In this document: piece after piece, positions 35,440-53,993 of the stretch
How positions within the stretch are numbered: the first letter of the stretch is position 1
Layout: each line of letters starts with the position of its first letter
Translations under genes and position numbers: made by a program
Notes under the pieces: model-generated
What the model saw: only the letters and a program-made list of their open reading frames with translations
What the model was told of the DNA's origin: nothing
Database searches by the model: none
Source of the DNA: Clostridiaceae bacterium
Lineage (GTDB): Bacteria > Bacillota > Clostridia > Peptostreptococcales > Tindalliaceae
Length of the DNA: 64,000 bases
Direction of reading: 5' to 3'
Assembly (NCBI GenBank): GCA_024635995.1
Contig: JAGXHW010000012.1
Location: forward strand, 52,452-116,451

Positions 35440-35730
35440 TGACATACCCGATGAAGGAGCTTACAAATGAAGCGCTTTCTTTCAGAGAGCCGATGGTTGG
35501 TGCAAATCGGCAGAAAGTCTCATTTCACTCTCTCCTGAGGGTCAGTACCCAACAAATTGTCAAACCTGACAATTTCAGTAGATTACTGCGATTGGTCTTC
35601 GTTAACAGACACCGCTTTTGAAGCAGCACTTCAGAGGTTAGAGTGTCCTGTGTTAATCACACAGGAAAATTTGGGTGGTACCGCGAACAGAACCTGTTTC
35701 GTCCCTTTGGGATGAGGCAGTTTTTTTATA
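35440..35730 (+). promoter_or_regulatory. T-box leader (tRNA-sensing riboswitch)
   Basis: The conserved T-box core TGGGTGGTACCGCG is at 35672-35685 and is followed by a terminator hairpin with a seven-T tail ending near 35727. Upstream, AGAGAG (35484-35489) pairs with CTCTCT (about 35528-35533) as the base of Stem I, with GAAGGAGC preceding it. The specifier codon is in 35515-35525: CTC (Leu, 35519-35521), GTC (Val, 35517-35519) and ATT (Ile, 35522-35524) all occur there and I cannot choose with certainty. Uncharged branched-chain tRNA would relieve termination ahead of ilvB. No gene is present in the 500 bases before ilvB. Confidence 0.92.
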
Positions 35731-35767: not shown

Positions 35768-37414
35768 ATGAAAATTAATGGCGCAGCTTGCATGGTAAAA
35801 TCCCTTCAGGCAGAAGGTGTCGAAGTACTATTTGGTTATCCTGGAGGCGCCAATTTATTTCTATACGATGCCCTCATTCAGTCAGGTATACGGCAGGTGC
35901 TGGTGCGCAATGAACAAGGTGCTGCTCACGCTGCCAGTGGATACAGCCGTGTAACTGGGAAAACAGGGGTCTGTATGGCTACTTCGGGACCAGGTGCCAC
36001 CAATCTAATCACCGGTATTGCCACTGCTTACATGGACTCTATTCCCATGGTTGCCATTACCGGACAGGTAGGGACTGATCTCATTGGTAAAGATGTATTC
36101 CAAGAAGTTGACATCACTGGTGCAACAGAACCTTTTACAAAGAATAATTATCTTGTGAAAGACATTAAAGACCTTCCACGAATTTTCAAGGAGGCTTTCC
36201 ACATTGCTTCCACAGGAAGACCTGGACCCGTTCTGATTGACATTCCCAAAGATATACAAAAAGCCACCCTGGATTTTCAATACCCTGAAACCATCGATTT
36301 GCGTGGCTATAAACCTACCACCAAGGGACATCCACGGCAGATTAAAAAGGCGGTTACCGCCATGATGGAAAGTCGAAAACCCATGATTATTGTGGGCGGC
36401 GGTGGAGTGATCGCCAATGCAACAGAAGAATTGATTGCCTTTGCCGAACGGATGCAGGCTCCTGTTGCCACCACTTTAATGGGAATTGGTGCTTTCCCTT
36501 CCAGTCACCCACTTTCTCTGGGTATGCTGGGCTGGGACCATGGTGTATACCCGGCAAAACAGGCAGTGGCAGAAGCTGATTTTCTCATCGTTATGGGTTC
36601 ACGTATGGCAGACAGATCAACAGGAAAGCGTGAGGAGTTTGCCCAGTCAGCCCACACTGTGGTGCATATTGACGTGGATCCGGCAGAAATCGGGAAAAAC
36701 ATTGACATTAATATCCCCATCGTCGGTGACATAAAGAAAACCCTGCAAGGTTTGCTTGCACAGGAATTTCATCGTGAAAACCCGGAATGGATACAACAGA
36801 TCAACAAATGGAAAGAGGTCACTAAAGGAACCGGAGCCGGTGACGGCGTTAATGGGTTGGATCCTATGCAAATCATCAAAACCTTGTCTCGAAAGACATC
36901 AAATGACACGATTGTTGCCACCGATGTGGGACAGCATCAAATTTGGACCGGCCGCTATTATGGATTCGAACAACCACGGACATTTTTAACATCCGGCGGT
37001 TTGGGAACCATGGGGTATGGTTTACCTGCAGCCATTGGTGCAAAAATAGGACAGCCGGATAAACAGGTGGCCCTCATCACCGGTGATGGAAGCTTTCAGA
37101 TGAATTTAACAGAATTGGCCACCGCTGCACAGGAAGGTCTGTCGATCAAGATTATTTTATTGAACAATAGTTGTCTTGGTATGGTTCGTGAGTTACAGGA
37201 GCACAATTGCGAAAAACGCTATACACAAACCACGTTGAAGGGCAACCCCGATTTTGTAAAGCTGGCTGAAGCCTATGGCTTCCCCGCCATTCGGGTAAGC
37301 CAGTCTGATGAAATTGATGATGCCATTGACAAGTTGCTGTCTCATGAAGGTACCATGGTGGCAGAGTTCATCATCGACCCAGTGTCCAACGTCATCCCCG
37401 CTGAGAAAAGGTAA
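35768..37414 (+). CDS. ilvB: Acetolactate synthase large subunit
   Basis: The 548-residue thiamine-diphosphate enzyme condenses pyruvate (or pyruvate and 2-ketobutyrate) in branched-chain amino acid synthesis. The catalytic glutamate is in VRNEQGAAHAASGY, and the ThDP-Mg motif GDGSFQMNLTELATAAQ continues to NN. I start it at ATG 35768 behind GAGGAG rather than GTG 35759, which overlaps that site. It is under T-box control and is followed after 12 bases by its regulatory subunit. Confidence 0.96.
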   Translation: MKINGAACMVKSLQAEGVEVLFGYPGGANLFLYDALIQSGIRQVLVRNEQGAAHAASGYSRVTGKTGVCMATSGPGATNLITGIATAYMDSIPMVAITGQVGTDLIGKDVFQEVDITGATEPFTKNNYLVKDIKDLPRIFKEAFHIASTGRPGPVLIDIPKDIQKATLDFQYPETIDLRGYKPTTKGHPRQIKKAVTAMMESRKPMIIVGGGGVIANATEELIAFAERMQAPVATTLMGIGAFPSSHPLSLGMLGWDHGVYPAKQAVAEADFLIVMGSRMADRSTGKREEFAQSAHTVVHIDVDPAEIGKNIDINIPIVGDIKKTLQGLLAQEFHRENPEWIQQINKWKEVTKGTGAGDGVNGLDPMQIIKTLSRKTSNDTIVATDVGQHQIWTGRYYGFEQPRTFLTSGGLGTMGYGLPAAIGAKIGQPDKQVALITGDGSFQMNLTELATAAQEGLSIKIILLNNSCLGMVRELQEHNCEKRYTQTTLKGNPDFVKLAEAYGFPAIRVSQSDEIDDAIDKLLSHEGTMVAEFIIDPVSNVIPAEKR

Positions 37415-37426
37415 AGGAGGGAAATC

Positions 37427-37939
37427 ATGAAAAAACACATTCTGTCCATTCTGGTGGAAAACAAACCCAGCGTCTTATCCAAAGTGGTAGGCCTTTTCAG
37501 CCGAAGAGGTTTCAACATTCACAGCCTTGCAGTCGGTGTCACGGAAGACCCTGAAGTCTCCCGTATTACCATCGTTGCTGACGGCGATGAGTATATACTG
37601 GAACAAATTTCCAAGCAACTGAATAAACTCATCGATGTCATCAAAGTTTCCAACATCAGTGATGATTCCATTGCCCGGGAGCTTGCTTTGATTAAGGTAC
37701 ATGCAACCCCCACGACCCGCAATGAAATCGTGGAAATTGTCAACATTTTCCGGGAGAAGGTGGTTGACATCACGAAAACCTCTGTCACCATCCAGGTGAC
37801 CGGGGATAGTAAAAAATTGGCTGCCCTGGAAGAAATGCTCAGAGATTTTGGTATTAAAGAACTGGTTCGCACTGGCATGATTGCCGTAGACAGGGGATCC
37901 GCCGCCATACAAGCAAGCAATGGTAAGAAAGAAGGGTGA
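37427..37939 (+). CDS. ilvN: Acetolactate synthase regulatory subunit
   Basis: The 170-residue protein has an N-terminal ACT domain (about 3-78, starting ILSILVENKPSVLSKVVGLF) that binds valine for feedback inhibition, and the C-terminal ALS_ss domain. ATG 37427 has AAAGGAGG upstream. The next gene, a selenocysteine-containing thioredoxin-like protein, begins four bases after its stop. Confidence 0.95.
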   Translation: MKKHILSILVENKPSVLSKVVGLFSRRGFNIHSLAVGVTEDPEVSRITIVADGDEYILEQISKQLNKLIDVIKVSNISDDSIARELALIKVHATPTTRNEIVEIVNIFREKVVDITKTSVTIQVTGDSKKLAALEEMLRDFGIKELVRTGMIAVDRGSAAIQASNGKKEG

Positions 37940-37943
37940 ACGA

Positions 37944-38213
37944 ATGACCACACCAGTGAAAATCGTCATTTATGAAGACATCGGTTGAGGTTTCAGCAAA
38001 ATGAAGCCCATCGTTGATGAGGCAGTGAAACGTCTTGGTTACAAGGCGCATGTACAATTGATCTGTAACCCAGTGGACATCGAAAAACAAAAATTCGACC
38101 AACTACCTGTATTAATGGTTAATGATCAGGTGATCGTCGAAGGCAAGGTGCCTTCCATCTTCACCATGCCTGCATTGATCCAGAAATCCGTTGATAAAAA
38201 CACTGAGAAATAA
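37944..38213 (+). CDS. Thioredoxin-like selenoprotein (MTH895-type fold), UGA read as Sec
   Basis: The frame opens at ATG 37944 behind AAGAAGGG and is interrupted only by TGA at 37986-37988 (codon 15) before TAA at 38213. Read through, it gives 89 residues in which the TGA falls exactly where the small MTH895-like thioredoxins have the first redox cysteine, with GU and GFSKM around it. The rest matches the fold: beta-alpha-beta, cis-Pro region QLPVLMVNDQV, then EGKVPS, as in MTH895 proteins. The second redox residue is Ser18 (UxxS); a lone Cys41 lies in LICNPVD. A SECIS-like hairpin follows the TGA at a proper distance. It is cotranscribed with ilvBN. Start-downstream annotation from 38001 would lose the active site. 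Confidence 0.82.
37986..38023 (+). promoter_or_regulatory. SECIS-like hairpin in the thioredoxin-like gene
   Basis: After the TGA, 17 bases are followed by GCCCATC (38006-38012), loop GTT, and GATG-A-GGC (38016-38023): a seven-pair stem with one bulged A and a loop starting with G, 25 bases from the TGA. This meets the bacterial SECIS pattern. A competing stem (GGTTTCA with TGAAGCC) lies immediately after the TGA. Confidence 0.6.
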
Positions 38214-38226
38214 TAATACTTCTTAA

Positions 38227-38275
38227 GATCAGTCTCTCAATTTCTAACTCATGGATTGAGAGACTGATCATTATA
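38227..38275 (+). terminator. Terminator-like hairpin after the ilv operon
   Basis: GATCAGTCTCTCAAT and its exact complement form a 15-pair stem ending at 38269, but only ATTATA follows, so termination may be partial and read into the nitrilase gene. Confidence 0.65.
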
Positions 38276-38413
38276 AATAGGATTATTATTCTATACCTTT
38301 TTGGACTAACTTCATTACTGCAAAAAAACAGGGTTCAAAGCTTGACACAGACTATTACCAAGCATACCATAGGATTAAAGACTTTGTGATTCAACAAATA
38401 TGGAGGGATGTAT

Positions 38414-39331
38414 ATGGATCGTCAGCCTCAATACGTAACAGTGGCAGTTGTTCAGGCAGCACCAGTGCTCATGAACAAGGACGCCACCATCAAGAAAACC
38501 GTTACACTTATCCAGGAAGCAGCCTCCCAGGGGGCAAAAATTATCGTCTTTCCCGAAGCTTTCATCCCTGCCTATCCCCGGGGGTTATCCTTCGGGTGTG
38601 TTGTGGGTAGCAGAACCATGGAAGGCCGCTATGACTGGCAGCGATTCTACGACAATTCGGTGTTGGTGCCTGGTGTTGATACTGACATCATCGGTGAAGC
38701 CGCCAGAGAAGCGCAGGCTTATGTGACTATCGGTGTCAATGAACGGGACTCTGGCAATACATCACTCTATTGTACCAACCTGTATTTTGGACCAGATGGA
38801 AAACTTCTGGGTAAACACCGTAAGCTGAAACCCACCGGTTCTGAGCGGCTGATTTGGGGTGAAGGTGATAGTAACACCCTGACGGTTGTAGACACTCCCT
38901 ATGGCACCCTGGGAGGTCTCATTTGCTGGGAAAACTACATGCCCCTTGCCCGAACCGCCATGTACCAAAAAGGCGTCAAAATCTATGTGGCTCCAACAGC
39001 TGATTCCCGGGAAGTCTGGCAATGTACCATGCGTCACGTGGCCCTTGAAGGCCGCTGTTACGTGCTTTCCTGCAACCAATATGTTGAAAAAAGCATGGTA
39101 CCCACCGACCTTAATGGTTACGAAGAGCTGAAAACCCAACCTGACATTATGTGTACTGGGGGAAGCGCCATCATTGATCCCTTCGGAAATTATGTGGCAG
39201 GTCCAATCTTCGGCGAAGAAAAAATTCTGTACGCCGACCTGGACCTTGGGGCCATCACTAGGAGTCGTTTGGACTTTGATGTCTGCGGTCATTATTCCCG
39301 ACCGGATGTTTTCGAGCTGTTGGTAAAATAA
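38414..39331 (+). CDS. Nitrilase family carbon-nitrogen hydrolase
   Basis: The 305-residue enzyme has the Glu-Lys-Cys triad at Glu48 (FPEAF), Lys137 (HRKLKPT) and Cys171 (LICWENYM). These flanking sequences are of true nitrilases/cyanide hydratases rather than amidases, so it should convert a nitrile to a carboxylic acid and ammonia. I start it at ATG 38414, six bases after GGAGGG; the ATG at 38408 touches that site. It stands between the ilv operon hairpin and its own strong terminator. The substrate is unknown. Confidence 0.9.
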   Translation: MDRQPQYVTVAVVQAAPVLMNKDATIKKTVTLIQEAASQGAKIIVFPEAFIPAYPRGLSFGCVVGSRTMEGRYDWQRFYDNSVLVPGVDTDIIGEAAREAQAYVTIGVNERDSGNTSLYCTNLYFGPDGKLLGKHRKLKPTGSERLIWGEGDSNTLTVVDTPYGTLGGLICWENYMPLARTAMYQKGVKIYVAPTADSREVWQCTMRHVALEGRCYVLSCNQYVEKSMVPTDLNGYEELKTQPDIMCTGGSAIIDPFGNYVAGPIFGEEKILYADLDLGAITRSRLDFDVCGHYSRPDVFELLVK

Positions 39332-49946: not shown

Positions 49947-51884
49947 TTAGTATTCAGGCGGTAAGGACAACATCTCTTCATAAGTGAACACCGGTCCATC
50001 AACACACATGTAGTGACTGCCCACTTTACAGTGACCGCATTTTCCTGCACCGCAACGCATATGTGTCTCCAAGGTTACGAAAATATCAGATGGCTTCATG
50101 CCCAGGTTCATTAAATCCCTCGCAACTTTCTTAATCCTGGCAGGAGAAGCACACACCAGTGCAGTAGTGTTTTTCCAGTCCATGCTAAGCCCTGGCAGCA
50201 GGTCATTGACGAAGCCCAAATGAGCCTCTACCTGATCAGTGGGATCTTTCAGGGAATAATGCACTTCCACATCTTCCAGCTGGCTCCATTCCTTCATTTC
50301 TTCTTTATAGATAATTTTTTCATAAGTTAATGCACTGGCCATAATGGCCACACGTCCGAAATCATGCAGGTTTTCCAACACTGGTTCCAACACGGTGCGT
50401 AAAGGTGCCATGGCCACACCTGACCCGACAAAGATCAGGTTTCGTCCTTTCAGGGACTCATAAGGATAGGCCTTGCCATAAGGGCCACGAAGACCTACTT
50501 TATCTCCCTCTTTCATCTGGTAGAGCAATTCTGTCACTGATCCCACATTTTTGAAGTCAAGTACAATTTCATCTTTCTGGCTGGGCCCAAAAGGAATCGA
50601 AAGCGGCACCTCACCTTCACCAAATACCGTTACCTGGAAGAATTGACCTTTGTGCTGGTAATTGTCATGGAGGGTCTGGTCATCGTATTTCATAAACATT
50701 CGAATAATTTCCGGCGTTTCCTGTTTTATCTTGGTGATGGTGGCCACATCAGGTGCGTAAAGACCTCGCCGTGTGTTGATTTCCCGGTCAACAATCTCGT
50801 GGCGTATTTTAGCTACCTGGTGAAGGGCTGGTTCCGTTGGGTTTTCCTTAACGGTTTTCTGCATGGCATTCATGATGTCGATGATGCTGATGTAGGTGGG
50901 GCATACATCAGCGCAGCGGCCACAACCAGAGCACCCTTTGTACCCAAACCTCTCTTCGATGTACTTTAACTTGTCGTAGATACGATAACGGACACGGGAG
51001 AGGGCATCTCTGGGATTATGATGCTCTGCATTCCTTGTGAAATGGTCGCTTTGACAGGAATCCCAGTAACGGACGCGGGTACCGTGGTTTTCATCCTGGT
51101 TTTCTTCCACCACATTAAAACAGGTACAGGTGGGGCATACGTTAGTGCAACCGGTGCATCCAATGCAGGCGTTGGCTTCGTCAATCCAGAAGTCTGCATC
51201 GAAAGTACGGGCCATGTCATCCCACAAATTGCTCAGATCCATTTTCAATGGAAAGCTTTCTGCCACCTGTTGTCTAAGCTCCTCCTGTTTCTCCAGTAAG
51301 GCTTTATCTGCCGGTATAAAAAAGTCAATGGCTCCTTCTATTAAGCCGTGACCCTTGTCAGTGGCGGCTTCCACCAGGTAGAAATCATCCATGGGGGTCA
51401 GTGTCAAGTCATGTCCTTGTGTTGAAAAGACACCCGTCCCGATGGAGGTGCAGAAACAATGTTCACCTGCCCGAAGACAGTTCACTGCCACAATGGTTGA
51501 TTTGGCCCTTCGGGACTGGTAATTGGGGTCCATAAATTCTTTCAGGTAGAACCTGTCTGTATAGGCAATGCCATAGGTGTCACAAGCCCTCACACCATAA
51601 AATATCCGGTCACCGGCATGATGATGCGCCAGGGTTTCAACGGTAATATCACCTTCATTATTCCGTTCCCAGCTGAATAATTTTTCCTTTTGTTCAAAAA
51701 CCATTTCTTTCACCGGCAGGGTCAGGTTGATATAGTCCTCTGTTCGCTCGGCGTCTTCCAGGGGAATCAGGTTAATGTCTTTTCCCTTGCCATGAGGCAC
51801 ATACACCGGTACTTTCCGGTTCCATTGGGAAAGCACTTCATCTAAATGTCGCTTTTCCAAGGTATACAGTTTCACTTCACTCAT
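49947..51884 (-). CDS. Fused Fe-S/flavin electron-transfer subunit of formate dehydrogenase
   Basis: The 645-residue protein combines two subunits that are usually separate. Residues 1-345 resemble the sulfhydrogenase/anaerobic sulfite reductase beta subunit, with two [4Fe-4S] ferredoxin clusters at Cys240/243/246/250 and Cys318/321/324/328. Residues about 365-645 resemble the gamma subunit, a ferredoxin-NADP reductase-like FAD/NAD(P) domain (GPYGKAYP, FVGSGVAMAPLR) ending in a [2Fe-2S] site, MRCGAGKCGHCKVG. Its ATG overlaps the formate dehydrogenase stop (ATGA), so the two are translationally coupled. It should carry electrons between the molybdo/tungsto-enzyme and NAD(P)(H). Confidence 0.9.
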   Translation of the reverse strand: MSEVKLYTLEKRHLDEVLSQWNRKVPVYVPHGKGKDINLIPLEDAERTEDYINLTLPVKEMVFEQKEKLFSWERNNEGDITVETLAHHHAGDRIFYGVRACDTYGIAYTDRFYLKEFMDPNYQSRRAKSTIVAVNCLRAGEHCFCTSIGTGVFSTQGHDLTLTPMDDFYLVEAATDKGHGLIEGAIDFFIPADKALLEKQEELRQQVAESFPLKMDLSNLWDDMARTFDADFWIDEANACIGCTGCTNVCPTCTCFNVVEENQDENHGTRVRYWDSCQSDHFTRNAEHHNPRDALSRVRYRIYDKLKYIEERFGYKGCSGCGRCADVCPTYISIIDIMNAMQKTVKENPTEPALHQVAKIRHEIVDREINTRRGLYAPDVATITKIKQETPEIIRMFMKYDDQTLHDNYQHKGQFFQVTVFGEGEVPLSIPFGPSQKDEIVLDFKNVGSVTELLYQMKEGDKVGLRGPYGKAYPYESLKGRNLIFVGSGVAMAPLRTVLEPVLENLHDFGRVAIMASALTYEKIIYKEEMKEWSQLEDVEVHYSLKDPTDQVEAHLGFVNDLLPGLSMDWKNTTALVCASPARIKKVARDLMNLGMKPSDIFVTLETHMRCGAGKCGHCKVGSHYMCVDGPVFTYEEMLSLPPEY

Positions 51885-53917
51885 TGTGCCACCTCAATTC
51901 TAACCGCCGACACTTTCAGTGCGGGGATTTTAATAATGGGGTCCAAGTTCTGGCCTGTCAAACGATTGGCTGGCGACTCGGCAAAATGGAAAGGCACAAA
52001 CACTGTTTTTTCTTTAATTCGGTCTGTGACCATTGCCGGTGCTGTGATGCTTCCCCTGGCCGAAGTGATGCGAACCTCCTGGTGCATCTTAATACCCAAG
52101 TCTTCGGCATCCTTTGTGTTAATCTCCACAAATCCATGGGGATATTCCCGATCCAGTGTCCACACCTTCCGTGTCATGGTGCCGGTATGGTACTGGTGGG
52201 TCACCCGACCCGTTGTCAGAAAGAAAGGAAATTCTTCGCTGCGTTGGTCGCCAATTCGCTCAAAATCATTTACGGTGAAAAGACCTTTGCCCCTTATAAA
52301 CTCACCCACATGTAAGATGGGAGTGCCGGGATGGTCTTTGGTGGGACAAGGCCACTGGAGTCCCACTTCCTGTATACGTTCATGAGTGATACCTCCGTAA
52401 ATATTAGTGGTCTCGTTGATTTCATCCATGATTTCACTTGGCGATTTGTAGTCAACATCCATTCCGATACGCTTCATGAGTTCATTAATAATCCACCAAT
52501 CCGGACGGCAGTTGCCCACTGGTTCAATGACTTTTCGAATCAGTTGTACACGCCGATCAGTGTTGGTGTACGTGCCGTCCCGCTCCAGAAAACTGGCGGC
52601 TGGTAATATGACATCAGCATATTGTGATGTTTCAGTCATAAAGATATCCTGCACCACAAGAAAAGGTATTTTTTCCAGGCAATGCATGGTATGAAGCTGG
52701 TCCGGATCGGAAAGTACCGGGTTCTCACCCACTATAATAGCGGCCTTCATTTTACCTTCTTCCATCAGGTTAAACATGTCAATAATGGTGTTGCCCCGCA
52801 GGCAGGAAATATCTCCCCATGCTTTGGTAAACCGATCTTTTGTTTCCGGCCATTCAGGTCGCTGGTAACCAGGAAGGTAATCCGGAAGGGTTGCCATGTC
52901 GCCTGCTCCCTGTACATTGTTCTGACCTCGCAGTGGGTTGATACCCGTAGATGGCCGGCCAACATGTCCGGTGAGCATGGCCAGGTTCCCCAGTGCACGT
53001 ATGCTTTTAACACCTGTGGTTTGTTGTGTCACACCCATGGTGAAGAGGATCATGGCCTTATCTGTGGTGGCGTATTTCCGGGCAAATAACCGGATGGTAT
53101 CCGCCGGTACATGTGTGATAGCTTCAGCCCACTCAGGTGTGCAGTCAACCACTGAAGCCTTCATTTCTTCAAAGTTTTCAGTACGGTTCCTGATAAATTC
53201 TTCGTCCATCAGGTTTTCTTCAATGATGACATGAATCATGGCGTTGATCATGGGCAGATTGGTGCCCGGTTCAATGATGGCGTGACCATGGGAAAAATCA
53301 GTGAGTCGAATCATTCGCGGGTCAATGACATACAGCTCCGCACCCTTTTCCAGGGCTTCAAAGATCCTGGTGCTTGCCAGGGGGTGCTGTTCTGTGGTGT
53401 TGGATCCAATCACCATGATCAATTCTGCATCGCTGATATCGTTCATCGTGTTGGTGGCGCCACCGGCGCCAAAGGAGGTAGAAAGACCTTCTACCGTTGG
53501 GCTGTGTCAGAGACGTGCGCAGTGGTCAACACTGCTGGTCTTCAGTCCGGCCCTGGCCAGTTTCGCCATGAGAAAATTTTCCTCATTTGTACAGCGGGCA
53601 GAGGAAACCACGCCAATGACATCGGTGTTGTCCCCGTCGGTCATGGCTGATTTTAATCCGTTAGCTGCAAATTCAAGGGCTTCATCCCAGGATGTTTCCC
53701 GAAAAGTGCCATCTTTCTGCTTTATGAGGGGGTTTGACAAGCGCCTAGAATCTCTCACGAAGGCAAAGCCGTGCCACCCCTTGGAACATAGTTTTCCTTT
53801 GCTGACCACATGGTTATAACTGGGTGTTATACCCAACATGGTACCGTCGTCTGCCATGTTGACGTAGATGCCACACCCACAACCACAATAACCACAGGTG
53901 GTTTCCATACGTTTCAC
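51881..53917 (-). CDS. fdhF: Formate dehydrogenase catalytic subunit, selenocysteine-containing
   Basis: Read through the TGA at 53509-53507 as selenocysteine, the frame gives a 678-residue molybdopterin oxidoreductase. The N-terminal [4Fe-4S] site is Cys8, Cys11, Cys15 and the Cys of KLCSKG. Sec137 sits in VDHCARL-U-HSPTVEG, matching the active-site selenocysteine of E. coli FdhF. The downstream molybdopterin guanine dinucleotide-binding regions and C-terminal beta-barrel domain are intact. Without readthrough the gene appears as two fragments. The start is GTG 53917 behind GGGGG. It is followed by an overlapping Fe-S/flavin subunit gene. It oxidises formate to CO2 or works in reverse. Confidence 0.95.
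53477..53509 (-). promoter_or_regulatory. SECIS element of formate dehydrogenase
   Basis: Eleven bases after the TGA, GGTAGAA (53495-53489) and TTCTACC (53483-53477) form a perfect seven-pair stem around the loop GGTCT, the same loop sequence as in E. coli fdhF. The distance from TGA to loop is 18 bases, within the bacterial SECIS range. Confidence 0.9.
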
Positions 53918-53993
53918 ATAATTTCCCCCTTTGCGTAATTTTTTTTGTCAAAATGACATAATGACTTTTTGAAATCGCTCACTACAATGAAAA

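Follow-up and report, generated by a model that had tools for sequence, protein, structure and literature searches.

The gene that lies directly behind ilvBN in the window, the whole 64,000-nucleotide stretch of Clostridiaceae DNA that was analysed, is very probably a selenoprotein gene, judging from its sequence and that of its homologues. It is named trxU here and is predicted to encode a thioredoxin-like protein of 89 residues with selenocysteine (Sec) at residue 15. trxU is taken as a Sec gene on the basis of a conserved UGA, a covarying hairpin, the presence of the Sec machinery in the genome, and a Cys version of the gene carried by a genome where selA was unmatched. The features referred to below are as follows.

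35442..35709, + strand: T-box leader (RF00230, Rfam match), in front of ilvB
35768..37414, + strand: ilvB, acetolactate synthase large subunit (TPP enzyme)
37427..37939, + strand: ilvN, acetolactate synthase small subunit
37944..38213, + strand: trxU, gene predicted to encode a thioredoxin-like selenoprotein of 89 residues (read-through frame up to and including the TAA stop)
37986..37988, + strand: in-frame TGA at codon 15, Sec by prediction (TGA in this column in 22 of 22 homologues; Cys in G019)
37995..37997, + strand: Ser18 codon AGC, third residue past Sec (Ser in 22 of 22)
38006..38023, + strand: 7-pair hairpin predicted to be a bacterial SECIS, with its GUU loop at 38013-38015, 24 nt past the TGA (comparative alignment and folding)
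38064..38066, + strand: Cys41 codon TGT, the only Cys of trxU, candidate partner thiol (sequence and alignment)
38227..38269, + strand: strong inverted repeat 3' of trxU, possible transcript end (−24.9 kcal/mol; no U run after it)
51881..53947, − strand: second selenoprotein gene, formate-dehydrogenase-type molybdopterin oxidoreductase (in-frame TGA, CARLUHSPTV; stop-to-stop frame)

The stop codon of ilvN is a TGA (37937-37939), the ATG of trxU follows four bases later at 37944, and a GAAGGGTG stretch resembling a ribosome site overlaps the ilvN 3' end, upstream of trxU. The frame of 89 residues contains a single TGA, at codon 15, and closes with TAA at 38211-38213. The position of the ATG, the single TGA and the closing TAA, together with the T-box ahead of ilvB and a second selenoprotein gene within the window, had been put forward in an earlier note made from the letters alone, and all of it is confirmed by the sequence and the Rfam match. 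The same note expected standard gene calling to give a 70-residue piece from 38001, and the database call P0002 matches that piece. A terminator scan found no U-tailed terminator 3' of trxU. Further downstream, a carbon-nitrogen hydrolase (nitrilase-type) gene occupies window positions 38408-39331 (+); G002 has a copy with 95% identity, whereas none was found at the locus in G001, these being the two other genomes of the genus.

An order-wide search revealed 22 homologous places with an in-frame TGA in 20 of 393 genomes. In all 22 homologues the TGA occupies a single alignment column and the third residue after it is Ser, while the residues before it are conserved as protein with variable third codon positions, as evident from VKIVIYEDIG and LKIIILEDIG. 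A profile built from the 22 UGA genes finds its own members at E <= 4.7e-29, the Cys form of G019 at 2.4e-22 and CxxC MTH895-like proteins from 4.1e-18, with a clear gap in score between the UGA genes and the remaining matches. G019 carries the one non-UGA orthologue found in the 393 genomes of the order (..EVVCCKGGK..), with Cys at the Sec position and Gly replacing Ser, and no selA match was obtained in this genome, which is 99% complete. A selA match is present in 18 of the 20 UGA genomes as against 245 of 393 overall (Fisher p 0.008, uncorrected for kinship), the two UGA genomes lacking it being 79 and 63% complete. The window's own genome (G000, 75% complete) contains selA, selB, selD and tRNA-Sec, each above its cut-off; its selD (G000:C10:72600-73520, −) has an in-frame TGA of its own. 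The earlier note had looked to orthologues with Cys or TGA at residue 15, to protein-level conservation ahead of the UGA, to Ser at the second redox position and to Sec genes in the genome, and each of these was found.

Sampling of 391 genomes from the class and 398 from the phylum turned up no UGA form beyond the order. A pattern scan of the genome contigs, with patterns fit only to the group with Gly before Sec, returned one locus. In G001 the trxU frame has no ATG ahead of the UGA, and its start would have to be ATC. Two further sequences flagged as having one TGA, in G454 and G045, were not counted, as they are CxxC proteins with the TGA at or after the domain end.

The 60 bases from the TGA onward align without gaps in the 22 genes, and their predicted consensus fold comprises 7 pairs, three of which show changes on both sides. 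Columns 24 and 34 of the hairpin hold C-G in 17 genes, U-A in 4 and U-G in 1, and columns 25 and 33 hold A-U in 19 and G-C in 3. Column 24 falls on the third position of a Pro codon and column 34 on the first position four codons further on, so that a silent choice at the former tracks an amino acid change at the latter. All seven pairs form in 17 of the UGA genes, six in 3 and five in 2; of the same pairs none forms in the Cys form of G019 and 0-3 form in seven CxxC paralogues. A 6-pair version beats all 500 shuffles for cells paired and for covariation score (kinship uncorrected), and its number of pair types is not above all 500. Folded alone, the window's hairpin has a free energy of −7.9 kcal/mol and a 3-nt loop with G first, and it falls within the bacterial SECIS limits given in section 5 of PMC13188914. 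Within a longer stretch it meets a competing fold, and that stretch as a whole is no stabler than shuffles (z −1.03). When the published bSECIS rule was applied strictly, a model hairpin came out in 8 of the 22 genes vs 24 of 240 random codons, and the scan missed the window's hairpin because another fold wins in longer stretches. The earlier note had the hairpin with a G-first loop begin 25 bases past the TGA; that distance suits the loop, at 24 nt, but the stem already starts at 17 nt.

Public annotation gives a different picture of the gene. A protein search returned 71 matches at E <= 1e-8, of which 20 sequences were inspected; the public records of the gene that were seen are pieces of 50-74 residues, or have the UGA read as Trp. 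Records of named species start past the UGA and are labelled 'thioredoxin family' or 'thioredoxin domain-containing', with lengths of 60-62 residues; the named cultured carriers are Anaeromicrobium sediminis, Alkaliphilus hydrothermalis and Acidaminobacter hydrogenoformans. Calls that start past the TGA (P0002-P0007, P0018-P0023) would agree with the TGA being a plain stop, the 14 upstream codons then being unjoined to the 70-residue frame, which would start at 38001 or be a decayed gene. Such a reading is highly improbable, as the codon is TGA, never TAA or TAG, in one column at 22 places, the residues upstream are conserved, the hairpin covaries, and Cys occupies the position in G019, where selA is unmatched. 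Nine metagenome records (P0010-P0017, P0020) carry W at the UGA, P0010 being the G010 gene with W for TGA; this Trp is probably a product of gene callers using code 4. Genuine decoding as tryptophan is scarcely credible, considering that the adjoining ilvN stops at TGA, that the genome has the Sec machinery, and that Sec, but not Trp, agrees with the hairpin and with the Cys form. Both readings were therefore rejected, on the conserved TGA column, the hairpin, the Cys form, the Sec machinery and the TGA stop of ilvN.

The predicted model of the protein has a thioredoxin fold (pLDDT 91.3, pTM 0.81) with strand 5-10, helix 20-31, strand 35-40 and helix 43-48, and MTH895 is among its top matches. 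The PF13192 (Thioredoxin_3) score is 33.5 bits vs a gathering cut-off of 24.8, and 1ilo is the best PDB sequence match. The proposal of a selenoprotein of the MTH895-like thioredoxin kind is supported. The active site of MTH895/ArsE is CxxC, and 1ilo carries such a site; the second Cys of the motif is absent in all 22 UGA proteins. In the ungapped alignment to MTH895 (1ilo), residue 14 corresponds to the first Cys, Sec15 to the next residue and residue 17 to the second Cys, whereas in the alignment to 1nho the two Cys fall opposite Sec15 and Ser18, and a one-residue gap is needed further on. The TGA had been thought to sit at the first active-site Cys of MTH895-like thioredoxins, which is so against 1nho and not so against 1ilo, where it comes one residue later. 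Structural superposition of the model on 1ilo places residues 4-80 on 1-77 with 75 aligned, and these ranges are consistent with the ungapped register (residue 14 on the first Cys), without proving it.

The 22 proteins differ in the residue before Sec. In 14 of them Cys directly precedes Sec (CU) and position 41 is not Cys, while the other eight, the window's trxU included, have Gly before Sec (GU) and Cys at position 41. Exceptions to Cys41 are the fragment P0003 (77% identical), with Ser at 41, and the metagenome member P0020, which has neither Cys14 nor Cys41. The Gly-Sec group forms one clade in the tree (99/95), placed inside the Cys-Sec forms, its exact placement being made unsure by the long-branched neighbour L052. 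A single clade indicates one Cys14/Cys41 exchange, not a repeated pattern. Our guess, from this exchange of Cys sites and from the modelled fold, where each of the two sites lies at the end of a strand and the strands are neighbours, is that Cys41 may resolve Sec15. The claim that the protein has no resolving partner Cys consequently holds inside the UxxS motif but not beyond it, given Cys14 in 14 of the 22 and Cys41 in the other eight.

Comparison with known systems suggests that trxU is a new variant, a UGA-containing subfamily of PF13192-type thioredoxin-like proteins. It resembles MTH895/ArsE (TIGR00412, PF13192, 1ilo) in length, fold and PF13192 membership, and MTH895-like genes adjoin several CU loci. 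It differs in having no CxxC, in the Sec lying one past the first-Cys position in the ungapped register, and in scoring below the TIGR00412 cut-off of 62 bits, the window protein reaching 29.9 and five other UGA members 30.4-55.5. None of the NCBIfam release 20 models was passed by the six of the 22 proteins that were scanned.

The 2026 catalogue of PMC13188914 describes 119 families, and trxU matches none of them; PF13192 occurs there in two entries, both of them Brachyspira proteins from PMC5330540. These Brachyspira proteins, Sec.1 and Sec.2, are similar to trxU in PF13192 membership, in Sec, in a UGA missed or truncated in annotation and in clustering with a Cys homologue. However, their Sec is described as being outside the CxxC site, on an N-terminal extension (PMC5330540), while that of trxU lies in the active-site loop, and the catalogue lists their motifs as CxU and UxC (PMC13188914). 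The organometallic SAO selenoproteins, e.g. SaoB with CUxxT in Table 1 of PMC13188914, share with trxU the adjacent Cys-Sec, a hydroxyl residue three on and an implied metal(loid) chemistry, but the same table lists SaoB as an ABC transporter substrate-binding protein. Permeases neighbouring trxU match the SaoE and SO_0444 models with scores below cut-off; SaoT and the other SAO models were matched by none of the six of 22 TrxU proteins scanned (E <= 1), and SaoE by the neighbour permease only. The Sec-containing SO_0444-type (COG0701, ArsP-like) permeases, represented by neighbours with SPFUSCS at L058, L059 and L062, are membrane proteins and neighbours of trxU rather than trxU itself; in Table 1 of PMC13188914 this type is catalogued only as GenBank-annotated. 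Sec thioredoxins (UxxC) differ from trxU, which has UxxS and no second Cys, and SelW-like proteins have CxxU. A 'redox-active disulfide protein 2' is named as a predicted selenoprotein, with no detail, in PMC7435645, and no trxU-like gene was seen in passages of PMC12013277 and PMC3091704. Literature on selenoproteins with ilvB contained, judged by title, nothing related, and that on acetolactate synthase with selenocysteine and thioredoxin consisted of a review on noncanonical amino acids.

The order ilvB-ilvN-trxU is found in all three genomes of the genus (G000, G001, G002), with trxU 4 nt past ilvN in G000 and G002 and the same gene order in G001, and the T-box is above the Rfam cut-off at two of these three loci. 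The TrxU proteins of the three genomes are only 54-74% identical. ilvN was not found at the other 19 of the 22 loci, some of which lie on short contigs (L047 at a contig end, L048 of 6.6 kb), and no ars gene stands beside trxU in the three ilvBN-linked genomes. The expected conservation of the ilvBN linkage is therefore true of the genus but not of the wider family, which leads to ars-type modules: ArsR, ArsP or a CxxC MTH895-like paralogue is near 14 of the 19 loci outside the genus. Among the Cys-Sec loci, 9 of 14 have one of these genes close by, seven of the nine having ArsR or ArsP, and the ars-type genes tested were absent from five (L054, L055, L057, L060, L061). In family f6, whose five loci belong to the same GU clade as the window's trxU, the gene is divergent from a half-ArsP gene pair at all five, the second half of each pair scoring below the Pfam cut-off. 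The half-length ArsP-like pairs lie at L048:2471-3558 (−) and at matching places in L047, L049, L050 and L051, and similar pairs occur elsewhere in these genomes. PF03773 permeases are present in 14 of 14 genomes checked, and genome presence alone is thus uninformative.

Some of these neighbourhoods have features of their own. The ArsP/COG0701-type permease genes L058:5664-6608, L059:5601-6545 and L062:7413-8357 (−), all beside trxU genes of the Cys-Sec form, each have one in-frame TGA within SPFUSCS, and two other neighbour ArsP-type permeases have Cys at the U position. From their sequences, trxU and the permease at these three loci both look like selenoprotein genes in one cluster. At L063, an arsA gene and a gene with a methyltransferase domain lie close to trxU. 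A family of 102-residue proteins without a confident Pfam match is divergent from trxU at L055:6350-6655 (−) and L057:6414-6719 (−).

The explanation that we favour, and hold to be reasonably likely from the sequence comparisons, is that TrxU is a thioredoxin-like Sec protein whose selenol probably makes it a carrier or reductase under metal(loid) or thiol stress, and whose gene in this genus lies behind ilvBN. The metal or thiol-stress role is drawn from the gene neighbours, from the fold and from the Cys-Sec motif common to metal-linked selenoproteins (SaoB CUxxT in Table 1 of PMC13188914); its metal part comes from the neighbours only. Ribosomes translationally coupled to ilvN would start trxU at 37944, and SelB with the hairpin 38006-38023 would bring Sec to codon 15. 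The selenolate would occupy the loop of the active site in a thioredoxin fold, possibly steadied by the invariant Ser18, and may attack a disulfide or ligate a soft metal(loid). A thiol would then free the Se intermediate; in the Cys-Sec form, the older one, this would be Cys14, and in the window's trxU Cys41. The cell's thioredoxins, with CxxC paralogues adjoining several CU loci, might act next. In the ancestral setting trxU would serve an ArsR/ArsP efflux module and would later have moved behind ilvBN, where it would be made during branched-chain amino acid shortage. Metal damage to the Fe-S enzymes of the branched-chain pathway could itself cause such a shortage. A fuller scenario is offered tentatively: Sec was set in the middle of a former CxxC (C-Sec-x-x-S), the partner thiol later passed from Cys14 to Cys41, and the gene was captured by the T-box ilvBN operon, so that a selenol metal-stress protein would be induced by branched-chain shortage, itself perhaps the result of metal damage to the pathway's Fe-S enzymes. 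A literature search pairing metals with branched-chain amino acids gave no match.

Two other functions deserve consideration. TrxU might work together with acetolactate synthase or the pathway to which it belongs, reducing or protecting thiols of IlvB/IlvN or of downstream enzymes with no metal role. The maintenance of the ilvB-ilvN-trxU order in three genomes despite the low TrxU identity, and the T-box at two of the three loci, speak for such a partnership; it is nevertheless unlikely, for ilvN is at none of the other 19 loci (the contigs of L047 and L048 being short) and the five f6 loci of the same GU clade adjoin half-ArsP genes. Alternatively, TrxU might use its selenol as a general reductase of disulfides or peroxides that has nothing to do with metals or with ilvBN, its operon positions being accidental; the predicted thioredoxin fold and the UxxS/UxxT motifs of other Trx-fold selenoprotein families in Table 1 of PMC13188914 speak for this. 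The missing second Cys and the ArsR, ArsP or CxxC paralogue near 14 of the 19 loci outside the genus argue against it and make it a rather remote choice.

trxU adds a well-supported UGA subfamily to the bacterial selenoproteome, one that the public calls seen miss or misread, and its presence in cultured species makes it directly testable. The natural series CxxC, CC, Cys-Sec and Gly-Sec plus Cys41 raises the question of what role Sec plays without a second Cys in the motif. It is also rare for a selenoprotein gene to be attached to an operon for amino acid synthesis, as trxU is behind ilvBN.
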